Part shown: positions 13,244 to 29,139 of the stretch, piece by piece
How the letters are laid out: every line of letters begins with the position of its first letter
How positions within the stretch are numbered: the stretch's first letter is position 1
The notes under the pieces: model-generated
Told to the model about the DNA's origin: nothing
The model's input: the letters and a program-made list of their open reading frames with translations, nothing else
Database searches by the model: none
Origin: Bacillota bacterium
GTDB taxonomy: Bacteria; Bacillota; Sulfobacillia; Sulfobacillales; Sulfobacillaceae
Assembly (NCBI GenBank): GCA_021806205.1
Contig: JAJZXX010000053.1
Location: 1 to 58,844, forward strand
Reading direction: 5' to 3'
Length of the DNA stretch: 58,844 nt
Position numbers and translations under genes: made by a program

Positions 13244-13734
13244 AGGTCCTCCATGTGGCGGGACCCTCCGGGGCCGGAAAAACCCGTCTGATCGAGGCGC
13301 TGTTGCCATCGCTGCCGGTAGCCTGGGTTATCAAATGGACGCATCACCCCATCGGCCAAGACAAGCCGGGCTCCGATACAGATCGGCTGTCATTAGGAGG
13401 CACGCCCACCATCCTCGCCGGGCCAGACGGACTGGTGGCTCGCTGGGCACTTGGCAATCGGTCTCTTTTATACGAATACATGGCCAGGATGTTACCCGAC
13501 GACGCGTTAGTCGTGATCGAAGGGCACCATGCCGACTCTCATCCAAAAGTTTGGATTGGAAGCGATCCGCCCCCATCATCAGCCCTGGTAATCGGTCCCG
13601 CGGCTCAAGGGGACTCTCACTGGTTGACGGCTGCGCTGCCGTTAACAGACAAAGACATCATCAACGCATCTGATTTTTTACGGCATCACTATCAACGCTA
13701 CTTGTACACCATCGGGAGGGATGCCCATGAGTGA
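13240..13734 (+). CDS. mobB: MobB molybdopterin-guanine dinucleotide biosynthesis adaptor
   Basis: A 164-residue P-loop GTPase-like protein. Walker A is GPSGAGKTRLIEAL at the N-terminus, followed by WVIKWTHHPIGQDKPGSDTD, which matches the conserved KH..H...D..GKDS region of MobB. ALVVIEGHHADSHPKVWI resembles the family's EGFK region, altered. MobB binds GTP and helps MobA. It overlaps mobA by 4 bp and moeA by 8 bp, a tightly coupled operon. Confidence 0.85.
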   Translation: MKVLHVAGPSGAGKTRLIEALLPSLPVAWVIKWTHHPIGQDKPGSDTDRLSLGGTPTILAGPDGLVARWALGNRSLLYEYMARMLPDDALVVIEGHHADSHPKVWIGSDPPPSSALVIGPAAQGDSHWLTAALPLTDKDIINASDFLRHHYQRYLYTIGRDAHE

Positions 13735-14935
13735 GTATATTGCTGCAGCCGACGCCCTTTCTTTAATTTTAGACCAAATCCGGCCGACTTGCCGCCAGGA
13801 ATCCGTTCCCTTGGATCAGACCGTGGGACGCATCCTGGCCGAGTCCATCGACGCGCAACGGGACGCGCCACCGTTTCGTCGGGCGGCCATGGACGGATAC
13901 GCCTTTCGATCCCAGGATACTCCCGGAACCCTTAATGTCGTCGGAACCATCGTCGCCGGAACCATCTGGTCTAAGCCCCTGAATCCGGGCGATGCCGTCA
14001 GAATTATGACGGGCGCCTTCGTACCGACCGAATGCGACACCGTGCTGGAGCAAGAGGCGGTCCAGGGTGGCCGAACCATTGCCGTTGTGAAAACCATCAA
14101 GTCAGACCGCAACATTATGCAGCAGGGACATGAATACCTTAAGGGCACCCGGATCTTTGAGGCCGGCACACCGATCGGCCCGATTGCCCTAGGACAGATG
14201 GCAGGGCTCGGGCTCGCGACCATCCCGGTACTGATAAAGCCCCGGGTACTCGTCTTGGTGACTGGCAATGAAGTCGTGCGGGGAGGGACAGTGTTGCCCG
14301 CCGGCCACATCTATGATGCAACGGGGCCGTTGTTGAAGGCGCTGATAGACGAATTGGGCGCCACCGCCACGGTGCGATATGGCCGCGATGATAAACGCTC
14401 CCTTTACCAATCCTTGGCACGGGCCGGACACACTTACGACTTAGTAATTACGACTGGCGGGGTCTCGGTCGGCATCCGCGATTATCTGCCCGAGGTTTTG
14501 TCCCAACATTTTCAGCGGCTCTTTTGGCGGGTCGACATGCATCCAGGCAAGGCGATGGCGGCGGGGCTCATTCGACCTGGTCTGCCCGTCCTGTCCCTAT
14601 CAGGCAACCCCGGTGCCACCCTGACCGCTTGGTACTTAATCGTAGCCCCGGTCGTGGCCAAACTATTGGGTCAGCCCTATCAACTCAAGTCCATAACCGG
14701 CCACCTGATCCACGAGTACCCCAAAGCCACGCGGGAGACGCGGTACTTGAAGGCCCACTTTATTAAGCATGCTGACGGCTATGGGTTTGATGTCTCGGTC
14801 AACCAATCGTCCGATGCCATCCGATCGTTCCAAGACGCCGACGGCCTGGTGGTCATCCCTCACAAGAGTCCGCCTCAACAAGAGGGCGCGGTCGTTCAGG
14901 GCCTTTTTCTACCCGGACGATCTTTGGGACAATAA
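13727..14935 (+). CDS. moeA: MoeA molybdopterin molybdenumtransferase
   Basis: A 402-residue enzyme that inserts molybdate into adenylated molybdopterin. Landmarks are RAAMDGYAFR (residues about 45-55), IMTGAFVPTECDTVLEQE, and the MoCF-binding domain with VLVLVTGNEVVRGG, LVITTGGVSVGIRDYLPEVL and LSLSGNPGATLTAWYL, followed by the C-terminal beta-barrel domain. ATG 13727 is preferred over ATG 13721 because GGGAGGG is 6 bp before it. The 3' end overlaps the convergent ArsC-like gene by 27 bp. Confidence 0.92.
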   Translation: MSEYIAAADALSLILDQIRPTCRQESVPLDQTVGRILAESIDAQRDAPPFRRAAMDGYAFRSQDTPGTLNVVGTIVAGTIWSKPLNPGDAVRIMTGAFVPTECDTVLEQEAVQGGRTIAVVKTIKSDRNIMQQGHEYLKGTRIFEAGTPIGPIALGQMAGLGLATIPVLIKPRVLVLVTGNEVVRGGTVLPAGHIYDATGPLLKALIDELGATATVRYGRDDKRSLYQSLARAGHTYDLVITTGGVSVGIRDYLPEVLSQHFQRLFWRVDMHPGKAMAAGLIRPGLPVLSLSGNPGATLTAWYLIVAPVVAKLLGQPYQLKSITGHLIHEYPKATRETRYLKAHFIKHADGYGFDVSVNQSSDAIRSFQDADGLVVIPHKSPPQQEGAVVQGLFLPGRSLGQ

Positions 14936-15265
14936 ATCACTCCACTGGTCGGGATTAAACCCGACGGCTAACTTGCCTTGATGTTCAAGCAGAGGGCGTT
15001 TAATGAGGCGCGGCTCGCGGCTCATCCAATGCACCCATTCATCATCGGAATGCACTCGATCGCGATACTGCCCATATTTAGGACTTTTGGTGGACAGTAT
15101 CTGGCGGATGCCGGCAGCCAATCCGGCTAACCGCCGGATTTCCTCATCCGTCAGCGGCTGACGAATCAAGTCGCGACTTTCGTTTACGGAGAACCCTTCC
15201 TGCACCAGCCACGCTCGCGCACGATTGGACGTCGTTCAGCCCTGGTAGCCATAAAAGATTGTCAC
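14909..15265 (-). CDS. ArsC/Spx-family thioredoxin-fold protein with in-frame TGA at the catalytic Cys (candidate selenoprotein)
   Basis: Read from GTG 15265, the frame gives VTIFYGYQG, then TGA (15238-15236), then TTSNRARAWLVQEGFSVNES. It continues as LTDEEIRRLAGLAAG and SREPRLIKRPLLEHQGKLAVGF to a stop at 14909. In ArsC/Spx proteins the position after YxxPx is the redox-active Cys (Y-H-N-P-x-C-G-T-S-R in E. coli ArsC). Here that exact codon is TGA. The conserved LIxRP motif and C-terminal region are intact, and about 89 codons follow the TGA without another stop. GTG 15265 directly abuts the TAA of the upstream Fur-family gene, indicating translational coupling. A hairpin fitting the bacterial SECIS layout starts 8 nt after the TGA. 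It is either a selenocysteine enzyme or a Cys-to-stop mutant; the sequence alone cannot decide. Confidence 0.7.
15205..15228 (-). promoter_or_regulatory. Candidate bacterial SECIS hairpin behind the in-frame TGA
   Basis: In the minus-strand mRNA, CCAAUCGUGC pairs with GCGUGGCUGG around the tetraloop GCGA. That is nine pairs in ten positions, with three G-U pairs and one A-C mismatch. The loop begins 17 nt after the UGA and its first base is G, as the published bSECIS model requires. GC-rich coding DNA can form such hairpins by chance, so the weight is moderate. Confidence 0.45.
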
Positions 15266-15721
15266 TTAGATTTTTCCCCCCTGCTTTCGATCACACGGGC
15301 CACACACACCATAAAACTTAAGCTCGTGATCCTGAACACGAAAGCCCTGCTCGTGAAATAGGCGTTGCTCGACCGGGGCTAACACATCCTCTTGAAATTC
15401 CTCTAAACGTCCGCATCGCATACACACCATGTGGTGATGACGATGCATGGTCGTCATCTCGACATTAATTTCATAACGCGCTCGCCCGTCGCGAACATGA
15501 ACCTTTTTGAGTACCTCTAATTGGGTCAACAATTCCAAGGTTCTGTATACCGTCGCCATGCCAATGTCACGAAAGTCACGCCGCACCATCTGCGAGACTT
15601 CCTCCGCTGACAATGGTTGGCCGGGTTGGTCCAAAAAAAGCTTGATAATAAGCTCACGTTGGGGCGTGAGCCGTTTGGCACCCTCTTCGAGGCGCCGGTA
15701 AACCTGGGAAAGTTGTGCCAT
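15266..15721 (-). CDS. Fur-family transcriptional regulator
   Basis: A 151-residue Fur/PerR/Zur-type repressor. The N-terminal winged helix contains LTPQRELIIKLFLD and IGMATVYRTLELLTQLEVL. The dimerisation domain has HRHHHMVCMRCGRLEEF and a second CxxC (CGPC) near the C-terminus, together the structural zinc site. The regulatory site uses the HHH cluster. Iron, peroxide or zinc sensing cannot be told apart from the sequence. It is followed without a gap (TAA then GTG) by the ArsC/Spx-like gene, which suggests the regulated output is redox or metal stress. A promoter is seen at 15805-15833. Confidence 0.9.
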   Translation of the reverse strand: MAQLSQVYRRLEEGAKRLTPQRELIIKLFLDQPGQPLSAEEVSQMVRRDFRDIGMATVYRTLELLTQLEVLKKVHVRDGRARYEINVEMTTMHRHHHMVCMRCGRLEEFQEDVLAPVEQRLFHEQGFRVQDHELKFYGVCGPCDRKQGGKI

Positions 15722-17886: not shown

Positions 17887-19005
17887 TTAATCGGCGATTG
17901 CGCGAAACAAGACGTCGACTCCCAAAGCCAGCGCCGCTTCATTCACCATAAAATGCGGCGAATGGTGCGGCGGGGAGTTGCCGCCCTCTAATCCCGACCC
18001 TAAGAACAAAAACGAGCCAGGCTTATGATGAAGATAGTAGGCAAAATCTTCACCTCCCATATGCGGGGTCATGCTAGTCACATTAACCAAGCCACGCAGT
18101 TTTTCCGCCCAACTTAACGCTTGCACCTCGTGATTAATCACCGCGGGATAACCCTTTTCGTAAATCACCTCGGCCGACGCGTCATAGAGCGCGGCGGTCG
18201 TACGGGCGATCCGTTCGATCTCCTTTTGGACGCGGTGTTGGACATCGACCGTAAAGGTTCGCACAGTGCCTGTCACTTCGGCAGTTTCCGCAATAATATT
18301 AAAGTTCTGCCCCGCATGGATCGTGCCACAGGTCACTACAACTGGTTCAAATGCAGCCACCCGTCGTGAGACGATGGTCTGAAGGTTTACCACCGTCTGA
18401 GCCGCAATGAGCACCGCGTCTTTGGTTTGTTGGGGCTGCGAGCCATGTCCCCCAACCCCTGTGATATGGACGGTAAAAATGTCGGCATTCGCCATAAAGG
18501 GTCCGGGTTGAACGGCTACCGTGCCTACGGGCAATTCCGCCCCGACATGCAATCCATAGACCTCATCAACACCTTCTAATGCACCTTGCTCAATCAGTTT
18601 GAGCGCACCACCCGGTGGTTTCTCCTCGGCCGGTTGAAACAGCATGCGCACGGTGCCCGCAAAATTTCGTCCGCGGCTTAAGCGTTCAGCCAATCCCAAG
18701 GCTATGGCCATGTGGGCATCGTGACCGCAGGCGTGCATTACGCCAGGATGCTCGGAACTGAAGGGAAGTCCGGTGGCTTCTGCCAACGGCAGTCCATCCA
18801 TATCTGCCCGCACCGCATACATTTTGCCGGGCGTCCCCGAGTCAATGTCCACCACAATACCCGTGTCACCAACCCGACGGGGCTCCAGCCCCAAGTCCCT
18901 GAGCTTTTGCCATAGATAATCATGCGTCTTATACTCTAAAAATCCCAACTCGGGAATACGGTGCAAGTCTCGCCGGTACCCGATCACCCTGTCCTGCCAC
19001 GTCAT
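17887..19005 (-). CDS. M20-family amidohydrolase (aminoacylase type)
   Basis: A 372-residue di-metal hydrolase. Visible motifs are YRRDLHRIPELGFLE at the N-terminus, YAVRADMDGLPLAEATGLPF, HACGHDAHMAIALG, FQPAEEKPPGGALKLIE and PHMGGEDFAYYL near the C-terminus, with a lid domain inserted between. This matches N-acyl-amino-acid amidohydrolases and N-acetyldiaminopimelate deacetylase relatives; the substrate cannot be told. ATG 19005 follows AGAGGGGGGACAGGG. It is 41 bp downstream of arginase, so a role in recycling acylated amino acids or arginine breakdown is plausible but inferred. Confidence 0.87.
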   Translation of the reverse strand: MTWQDRVIGYRRDLHRIPELGFLEYKTHDYLWQKLRDLGLEPRRVGDTGIVVDIDSGTPGKMYAVRADMDGLPLAEATGLPFSSEHPGVMHACGHDAHMAIALGLAERLSRGRNFAGTVRMLFQPAEEKPPGGALKLIEQGALEGVDEVYGLHVGAELPVGTVAVQPGPFMANADIFTVHITGVGGHGSQPQQTKDAVLIAAQTVVNLQTIVSRRVAAFEPVVVTCGTIHAGQNFNIIAETAEVTGTVRTFTVDVQHRVQKEIERIARTTAALYDASAEVIYEKGYPAVINHEVQALSWAEKLRGLVNVTSMTPHMGGEDFAYYLHHKPGSFLFLGSGLEGGNSPPHHSPHFMVNEAALALGVDVLFRAIAD

Positions 19006-26019: not shown

Positions 26020-26934
26020 CTATTTTCCAGCCACCAGCGCCCGGGCAAAGAAGAGGAGATTTGCGGGTCGTTCCGCGACACGCCTGACGTAATAGGCATA
26101 CCAATCTTCCCCATAAGGCACATAAACCCGGGTGCGGTAGCCCTGGTCGGCCAAACTCTTGAGCAAATTAAACCCGACGCCATACAGCATTTGAAACTCG
26201 AAACGATCGCGTGGTACATTGTTCTCGTGAACGAACTTTAAAACCCGCCCAATAAGACGTTCGTCGTGCGTACCGACCGCCGTGTAGTTCCCCAGCTGCA
26301 TAGATTCCTGCACGAGTCTCACATAATTGTCGTCCACATCTGCCTTGGACGGAAAGGCCACAGACACGGGTTCGCGATAGGCTCCCTTGACGATGCGAAA
26401 GTTCTTAGGCGGGTTGGATAGGTATCTTAAGTCATCCACACTACGATATAGATAGGCTTGCAGCACCACTCCGACATTTTCGGGATGCAACGCCTGAACC
26501 TTCTCGTAAAGCCTTAAGGTGACATCCGTATAAGGCGAGTCTTCCATATCGATGCGGACGAAATTCTCGTAAAAGGCGGCCTTTTCGACGATTTCGAGCA
26601 AATGGGTCCATCCCCATTGTTCGTCCAAAGCCAGACCCATCATGGTCAGCTTTAGCGATACGTTGGCGTTAACCCCACTTTGGTGAATGGCCTCGAGCAT
26701 GGCTAGATAACTATCTTTCGCCGCCTGCGCTTCTTTTTCATCGCGAACCGCCTCGCCTAAGTGGTCCAGCGTCACCATCACGCCGCTACCATTAATCTCG
26801 CGTATGACCTCGATAGCTTCGGTAAGCGTACGCCCCGCGACAAATCGCGATGCCCCGAGTTGCATGCCGTAGCGTGTTAAGGTGCCTTTTACCACCGGAT
26901 TGCCTGCTAAACCCAGTACTGCTTCGCGAAACAT
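26020..26934 (-). CDS. putA: Proline dehydrogenase (monofunctional)
   Basis: A 304-residue FAD-dependent (beta-alpha)8 barrel oxidising proline to pyrroline-5-carboxylate. Diagnostic segments are VSLKLTMMGLALDE, RIDMEDSPYTDVTLRLYEKV, FRIVKGAYREPVSVAFPSKA, FEFQMLYGVG and RVYVPYGEDWYAYYVRRVAE then RPAN at the end. Length fits the single-domain form of Bacillus (often called FadM, PutB or PrdH). No pyrroline-5-carboxylate dehydrogenase gene is adjacent. It starts 9 bp after the truA stop, so it is probably cotranscribed with the alpha operon. Confidence 0.92.
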   Translation of the reverse strand: MFREAVLGLAGNPVVKGTLTRYGMQLGASRFVAGRTLTEAIEVIREINGSGVMVTLDHLGEAVRDEKEAQAAKDSYLAMLEAIHQSGVNANVSLKLTMMGLALDEQWGWTHLLEIVEKAAFYENFVRIDMEDSPYTDVTLRLYEKVQALHPENVGVVLQAYLYRSVDDLRYLSNPPKNFRIVKGAYREPVSVAFPSKADVDDNYVRLVQESMQLGNYTAVGTHDERLIGRVLKFVHENNVPRDRFEFQMLYGVGFNLLKSLADQGYRTRVYVPYGEDWYAYYVRRVAERPANLLFFARALVAGK

Positions 26935-28133: not shown

Positions 28134-29081
28134 CTATTCTTCGGACGGTTTCAATGAAAGCCCCAGACTTAAGAGCTTCTCTTTAACCTCTTCCAAGGAT
28201 TTCTTGCCTAAATTGCGCACTTTCATCATATCTTCGTCGGTCTTGTTGGTCAGCTCGCCCACGGTATTAATACCGGCCCGCTTCAAACAGTTGAAGGAGC
28301 GAACCGATAAATCAAGCTCTTCGATGGGCATCTCCAGCAGACGGTCCCGCTTGTCCTCTTCGCGTTCCACGCCAAGCTCCACACCCGGGACGCCGTCGGT
28401 CAGGTTGGCAAACAGGCGCAAATGGTCCGACAGAATTTTCCCACCGCTCGATACCGCTTCTTCCGGCGACATCGAACCATCCGTCCACACCTCCAAGGTG
28501 AGACGGTCGTAGTCGGTGATGTGGCCGACACGGGTGTCTTCGACGCGCCAGTTCGCTTTCAGCACGGGGCTGAAGATAGAGTCGACTGGAATCGCCCCAA
28601 TGGCTTGCTCGGCCCGCTTGTTCTTATCCGCCGGCACATATCCACGCCCTCGCTCAATGGACATTTCCATAGAAAGACGGGAACCTTCGTCCACGTAAGC
28701 AATGTGCTGCGACGGATCGAGTACATCCACATCCGCATCAGCCAAAATGTCTTGCGCCGTGACCTCCGACGGCCCTTGCTTGTCAATGCGCAACATTTTC
28801 GGCCCTTCCGACCAAGACTTCAACGCGAGACGCTTCAGGTTCAGAATGATATCCGCCGTATCTTCCAGGACGCCCGGAATGACCGAAAATTCATGAAGAA
28901 CGCCCTCGATGCGCACAGAGGTTACCGCTGTCCCGGGAAGCGAAGAAAGTAGAATCCTCCTGAGTGAATTGCCTAATGTGATACCGTAACCTCTGTCCAA
29001 CGGCTCCACCACAAACTGCCCATAATTGGGCTCACTGCCATCATCTACCCGGCGAATTTCCGGTTTCTCAATTTCGGTCAT
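28134..29081 (-). CDS. rpoA: RNA polymerase alpha subunit
   Basis: A 315-residue alpha subunit. The N-terminal domain (residues 1 to about 230) includes [20 protein letters not shown] and supports assembly of beta and beta'. The C-terminal domain (about 245-315) carries [20 protein letters not shown] and [16 protein letters not shown], which bind UP elements and activators. ATG 29081 begins the conserved [13 protein letters not shown], but its G-rich box is very close. An upstream in-frame ATG at 29132, 8 bp after the rpsD stop, could be used by coupling. Confidence 0.96.
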
Positions 29082-29139
29082 TCCCCCAGCCCGCGTTAGC
29101 AGGCCTTGCCCCCTTTCCGTAACTCCCAACATTGAGCAA

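Follow-up and report, generated by a model that had tools for sequence, protein, structure and literature searches.

Two selenoprotein forms of the ArsC type are already catalogued. The available part of a 2026 catalogue of 119 families lists an arsenate reductase with a UxxS motif (TIGR00014) and an arsenate reductase-like protein with a UxxC motif (NF041106) (PMC13188914). The same two forms are listed in the available part of PMC9312934. A word search of the main text of PMC13188914 did not find Spx, MgsR, TIGR01617, PF03960 or Sulfobacillus, and the hits given in the accessible part of PMC12013277 include neither ArsC nor Spx. In the open-access literature, searches combining Spx with selenoprotein or selenocysteine (Sec) returned only titles on selenium in plants or on selenium compounds. 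Nothing was found there that joins selenocysteine with MgsR, and RefSeq may already annotate such proteins; nor was anything found on selenoproteins of the ArsC family in Firmicutes. Sec itself is familiar in Sulfobacillus. Putative Sec formate dehydrogenases occur in all of the genomes studied, according to the part of PMC4378227 available, and the accessible text on S. thermotolerans Kr1 reports a Sec peroxiredoxin and no arsC (PMC7409299).

The locus described here lies in a window of 58,844 nucleotides, the whole stretch of DNA analysed, from a member of the Sulfobacillaceae (contig JAJZXX010000053.1). A candidate selenoprotein gene, Spx/MgsR-like and of the ArsC fold, occupies 14909..15265 on the minus strand. 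Its GTG start (15263-15265) directly follows the TAA (15266-15268) of a Fur-family gene, and the frame runs to a TAG at 14909-14911 with a TGA at 15236-15238 as its sole interruption. Both the joined start and the otherwise open frame had been claimed in the original prediction, and reading of the minus strand bears them out. With the TGA read as Sec (U), the translation has 118 residues with Sec at position 10, in the active-site stretch YGYQG-U-TTSNRARAWL, and matches Pfam ArsC (PF03960) at 5.8e-14. The predicted U10 aligns with Cys10 of Spx, in agreement with the earlier placement of the TGA at the redox cysteine of an ArsC/Spx fold. No other ArsC/Spx-type match was found at E ≤ 1e-3 in the window's genome (3.77 Mb in 254 contigs; estimated completeness 86.8%).

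Relatives were collected from 42 genomes of the window's order (G000-G041), from 154 genomes of its class (threshold E ≤ 1e-8) and from 398 genomes of its phylum (threshold E ≤ 1e-15). The best NCBIfam model of the window protein is TIGR01617 (Spx/MgsR) with 67.1 bits, below the cut-off of 75.05. This cut-off was passed by 10/10 phylum copies and 5/10 class copies scored; four order copies missed it at 70.2-74.1 bits. Neither catalogued ArsC-type model accommodates this Spx/MgsR-like kind of selenoprotein. The window protein reaches 24.2 bits under TIGR00014 (cut-off 106.05; best of 20 relatives 60.9) and 28.9 bits under NF041106, the model for ArsC family (seleno)proteins (cut-off 85), which none of the 79 class members was able to reach (best E 7e-11). 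Compared with solved structures, the family profile scores 90 bits for Spx, 63.8 for YffB and 35 for the best true ArsC-type structure (1s3d); putative ArsC-family structures (3gkx, 2m46, 2kok and others) score 49-71 bits. By these profiles the predicted protein is nearest to Spx/MgsR and not to arsenate reductases. Of the earlier label "ArsC/Spx-like", the Spx/MgsR side is the one favored.

The likeness to Spx/MgsR (TIGR01617; B. subtilis Spx, PDB ID: 1z3e, 7f75) covers the fold, redox position 10, Gly52, Arg-Pro and an alignment over the full length. Gly52 is present in the window protein and in 30/36 order copies. The Arg-Pro-Ile motif reads R90-P91-L92 in the window, with Arg-Pro in 36/36 order copies and Ile in 25/36. 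Gly52 and Arg-Pro are among the three Spx identifiers named in the available part of a preprint (PMC12822559). Unlike Spx, the window protein has Sec for Cys10 and, within its genus, Ser/Ala for Cys13; it has 118 residues against 131, lies below the TIGR01617 cut-off and adjoins fur. The NF041106 proteins share with it an ArsC-like fold in which Sec takes the first redox position (PMC13188914, Table 1). UXX-star/glutaredoxin-like proteins (NF041212, NF041211) have a similar hairpin and a thioredoxin-like redox motif that begins with Sec, but they are about 80 residues long and have no counterpart of the segment inserted in the ArsC/Spx fold.

A selenocysteine arsenate reductase (ArsC) would also have the ArsC-family fold. 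UxxS enzymes of this kind were predicted from the Sargasso Sea (available part of PMC1088965), and the window copy is likewise UxxS. The absence of an identified arsC in S. thermotolerans Kr1 would suit such an enzyme. Against it stand the TIGR00014 scores given above, far from the cut-off, and a conserved neighbor that is Fur. We consider this explanation improbable.

The gene was found in 36/42 order genomes, and all 36 copies have TGA at the redox codon. The genomes without it are G004, G030 and G033 (59-63% complete), G010 and G019 (genus g4), and G035. The original prediction asked whether close relatives have TGA or TGC/TGT here; the answer is TGA in 35/35 other order copies, with the frame otherwise open. 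Second stops seen in some copies are the end of the frame. Because all 36 copies carry it, the TGA reflects more than chance. An ordinary nonsense mutation, which would make the window copy a decaying ArsC/Spx pseudogene, could draw on two peculiarities of that copy: it alone, of 37, has a G.G mismatch in the hairpin stem discussed below, and it has CTG at Leu20 where the 35 others have CTC/CTT. The same TGA is nevertheless shared by copies only 36-54% identical to that of the window, with frames otherwise open and with invariant residues, and we regard decay as the least probable of the explanations weighed here. Nor is the TGA easily read as a real stop followed by a restart, giving a truncated protein, or as a fixed regulatory stop. 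An in-frame GTG behind it (15203-15205) does open a frame of 98 residues in the window copy. However, in-frame start codons after the TGA are scattered among the order copies: none of the first 25 codons is a start in more than 10/36. The residues preceding the TGA are conserved (Tyr7 in 36/36), and at the TGA codon itself relatives have Cys. A genuine stop is very improbable.

The class sample yielded matches in 79 genomes at 82 loci. The active site has TGA at 67/82 loci and Cys in a CxxC motif at 12/82. Three were set aside from the class alignment (79 rows): G050 and G127b, which are another ArsC type, and G122b, which is cut by a TAG. An ArsC/Spx-like Cys copy (CxxC) at L127 (G122:C26:2115-2453) has a TAG soon after the active site, and the same genome has a TGA-type copy. 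One genus holds both forms, TGA in G131 and G132 and Cys in G133, with SelB in all three. In the phylum sample 90 genomes matched. Outside the class all 35 TGA-bearing matches have the TGA at the active site, and the three phylum matches without TGA that were examined have Cys there. With 35 TGA copies outside the class in this sample, Sec-type Spx/ArsC-like genes are not rare and seem to be widespread in the phylum. A scan of named genomes gave one distant relative (L002, 24% identity).

In a tree of 117 rows the 36 order copies form one group with support of 100/99. Changes between Sec and Cys number 11 by parsimony, of which 7 are forced by well-supported branches; the tree rests on few columns, so its deep forks are unsure. 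Genome G023 contains a divergent second TGA-bearing ArsC/Spx-like copy (L157, G023:C7:31648-31983) with the motif UGAC and an end branch of 2.14. This copy has a hairpin of its own, GUGAAAGC-GUG-GCUUUCAC.

The window's genome encodes the means to insert Sec. The four genes whose presence was to be checked were all found by profile matches, Rfam and ARAGORN: selA (5.1e-140), selB (356.7 bits against a cut-off of 242.25; 630 residues), selD (358.4 bits) and selC. The tRNA-Sec scored 72.2 bits with Rfam, at a cut-off also exceeded in 5/14 control genomes, and was confirmed with ARAGORN (anticodon tca). The frame of the selD match (L048, G000:C165:2660-3595) contains one TGA, and SelD may therefore be another selenoprotein of this genome. 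TGA as a general sense codon was ruled out, given the presence of the Sec genes and the use of TGA as the terminal stop of the Spx/MgsR-like frame in G034, G040, G041 and others. The conserved TGA, the Cys forms further out and the Sec genes together support the claim of a selenoprotein. From this evidence the gene is very probably a real selenoprotein gene, almost certainly intact despite its TGA.

Across the order SelA was detected at E < 1e-100 in 36/42 genomes. Gene and SelA occur together in 33 genomes, the gene alone in 3, SelA alone in 3, and neither in 3. The gene-only genomes (G023, G028 and G036) gave no SelA match, and SelB is above its cut-off in all three. SelA alone is found in G004, G033 and G035. 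The genomes with neither are G010, G019 and G030; in G019 the only SelA match (5.8e-4) is barely above the Pfam cut-off. The two genomes of genus g4 (G010 and G019; 96-97% complete) are without the gene, SelA and SelB, and the SelB search returned from them matches of translation-factor level alone (191-195 bits). The complete-looking genome G035 has SelA and SelB and no copy of the gene at the thresholds used, so the use of Sec does not require this gene.

A hairpin with a GCGA loop 17 nt behind the UGA had been put forward as the Sec insertion element (SECIS). It is paired in 67.6% of cells over 37 copies (the 36 order copies and G048), with no double changes and covariation equal to that of shuffles, and it was rejected. 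The conserved hairpin is a different one. It lies at 15202..15220 on the minus strand, with arms at 15213-15220 and 15202-15209 around a GUG loop at 15210-15212. The arms correspond to nt 16-23 and 27-34 behind the UGA. In the same 37 copies 82.1% of cells are paired, and covariation is 0.246 against 0.119 ± 0.015 in shuffles, which ignore relatedness while the structure was drawn from the same sequences. When the stem is slid by 1-3 columns, covariation is at most 0.077. The two outer pairs form in 18/37 copies. A set of 60 class copies is 88.6% paired, with 46 double changes and covariation of 0.310 against 0.157 ± 0.012 in shuffles, relatedness again being ignored. Left out of this set, drawn from the 67 TGA loci, were six with a shifted register (L122, L129, L131, L132, L135 and L154) and L147, which is the same as L146. 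A G in a small apical loop closely behind the UGA is thus present, on a covaried stem. A G in the apical loop is a stated feature of the bacterial SECIS in the available part of PMC1088965.

The codons within the stem tell the same story. Arg17 is written CGA in 25/28 copies with Arg, compared with 31/374 of the other Arg codons in these genes. For Ala18 the codon is GCG in 36/36, compared with 128/344 elsewhere, and Leu20 is CTC/CTT in 35/36 order copies. Codon choice at these three residues follows the stem, and the hairpin is therefore not accounted for by the encoded residues alone. The exception at Leu20 is the CTG of the window copy, which produces the G.G mismatch in its stem. Where class members differ in the residues at positions 18-19, a hairpin is still seen by eye, in some cases in a shifted register.

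Folding energy alone is weak evidence for the hairpin. The window segment has a z of −1.64, and 11/200 shuffles fold as well; z ranges from −2.72 to 0.16 in six other copies (0.16 in L072), and the minimum-energy fold of L060 is a different structure. A covariance model of the hairpin finds the window gene as its best match in the window's genome (45.2 bits). The six TGA loci in shifted register score 16.0-21.8 bits. Among the 12 Cys loci the model matches at the gene in three (L121 with 20.9, L136 with 13.0 and L117 with 12.3 bits). L121 scores as high as some TGA loci, which counts against the specificity of the model.

Two glutaredoxin-like frames elsewhere in the window's genome also have TGA at the redox Cys. 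The first, with the motif UNAC, is at L201:1471-1716 on the plus strand (G000:C23, TGA 18222-18224). Its hairpin is the second-best match of the model in the genome (38.0 bits, E 1.4e-6), and the frame is a probable further selenoprotein gene. The second, with the motif USAC, is at L202:1336-1587 on the minus strand (G000:C213) and matches GlrX_YruB at 8.8e-14. Its hairpin match (26270-26314; 17.6 bits, E 0.34) is too weak to believe on score alone. The fourth match of the model in the genome (L203) has 16.0 bits and E 0.83.

The Fur-family regulator is encoded directly upstream, at 15266..15721 on the minus strand (Pfam FUR 1.8e-32), and its stop abuts the GTG. Its best NCBIfam score is that for Fur of Bacilli (158 bits; cut-off 220), followed by PerR (79.7) and Zur (43.4). 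The proposed pairing with a Fur-type regulator extends well beyond the window. Searching by tblastn with the window's Fur, we located a same-strand Fur upstream of 34/36 order copies, ending 2-154 nt before the match. In many order copies with well-picked ORFs, above all in the window's genus, the Fur ORF abuts the gene or overlaps it. The two copies lacking an upstream Fur, in G015 and G023, are both from genus g9; in G023 the available upstream sequence is just 2.7 kb long. The arrangement was not seen outside the order: Fur was directly upstream at 0/84 loci of the phylum examined. Adjacent same-strand Fur was found at 0/46 other class loci, four of which show a weak Fur match at a distance of 1.5-2.2 kb on the other strand, and adjacent Fur at 0/38 phylum loci, one of which has a Fur about 1 kb upstream. 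A search for other operon partners outside the order showed no Pfam family in more than 4 of 53 same-strand neighbors (ORFs within 100 nt, picked mechanically, < 700 residues).

An alignment of 28 Fur rows has 27 that match Fur models; the remaining one, L065, is a wrongly picked frame. The Fur homologues beside the gene in L069-L071 (G016, G020 and G012) have lost a His-rich metal-binding stretch that is kept in most other members, so the signal they sense may differ. On the other side of the gene, molybdenum cofactor genes do face it as predicted (MobA-like, MobB and MoeA matches). The convergent moeA (13721..14935, plus strand) shares 27 nt with the 3' end of the gene and is judged to be outside the system. 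The molybdenum link was dropped, as the downstream neighbor differs in size and strand among relatives.

The redox motif is UTTS in the window, UxxC in 23/36 order copies and UxxS/UxxA in 13/36. Position 13 is Ser or Ala in all seven copies of the window's genus, where the classical CxxC switch cannot form. In the class the second Cys is absent from 14/67 TGA copies and from 0/12 Cys copies. In the phylum set, judged by eye, it is absent from 13/35 TGA copies and from 2/3 Cys copies (G472 and G493). The idea that its loss is limited to Sec copies was given up on account of these last two.

Taken as a whole, the explanation we favor with high confidence is that the gene encodes a selenoprotein which, within the ArsC-like thioredoxin fold, belongs to the Spx/MgsR branch and is probably expressed on a common transcript with Fur. 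Judging from conservation, covariation and the Sec genes, SelB would deliver Sec-tRNA(Sec) to the UGA under the guidance of the stem-loop, which starts 16 nt downstream. In the redox reaction Sec very likely makes the attack through its selenol: it is predicted at position 10, where relatives have Cys. In the 23/36 order copies with Cys at position 13, that residue could resolve Sec as a selenenylsulfide. With Ser/Ala there, as in the window's genus, a second thiol or another protein would have to do so.

Whether the product acts beyond catalysis is a separate matter. The selenoprotein might be an enzyme only, a glutaredoxin- or YffB-like thiol/selenol reductase that makes no contact with RNA polymerase. 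Redox functions are expected for most uncharacterized selenoproteins, according to the available part of PMC13188914. Furthermore, the window's genus has no CxxC switch, and the copies stop close to where the shared fold stops (118 residues here; 131 in Spx). The higher profile score for Spx than for YffB and the Spx identifiers (Gly52 in most copies, Arg-Pro in all) nevertheless pull the other way, and we lean neither towards nor against an enzyme-only role. More tentatively, and with rather less confidence, we entertain a Sec version of Spx, a redox regulator that would dock on RNA polymerase via a selenol switch and, in one operon with Fur, join iron and redox control. The partner that a Spx-like protein would need, the C-terminal domain of the alpha subunit, is encoded in the window by rpoA (28134..29132, minus strand). 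This domain closely resembles its counterpart in the B. subtilis Spx complex; in the segment SYNCLKRAG it has Phe in place of a Tyr that contacts Spx.

The linkage to fur suggests that redox state and iron control are connected. In S. aureus, when Spx is redox-dead, Fe(II) is depleted and the Fur regulon is induced under disulfide stress, as described in the available part of the preprint PMC12822559. This observation makes a Fur/Spx-like pair plausible and proves nothing here. Annotation that stops at the TGA would miss genes of this kind, and this may be relevant to the absence of arsC in the S. thermotolerans study, as far as its accessible text goes (PMC7409299). If the role of Spx is kept, Sec would have a place in a transcription switch as well as in enzymes, and in the window's genus the Sec-type Spx would be a single-selenol switch without a second Cys. 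The probable operon with fur makes this question of redox and iron directly testable in culturable acidophiles.
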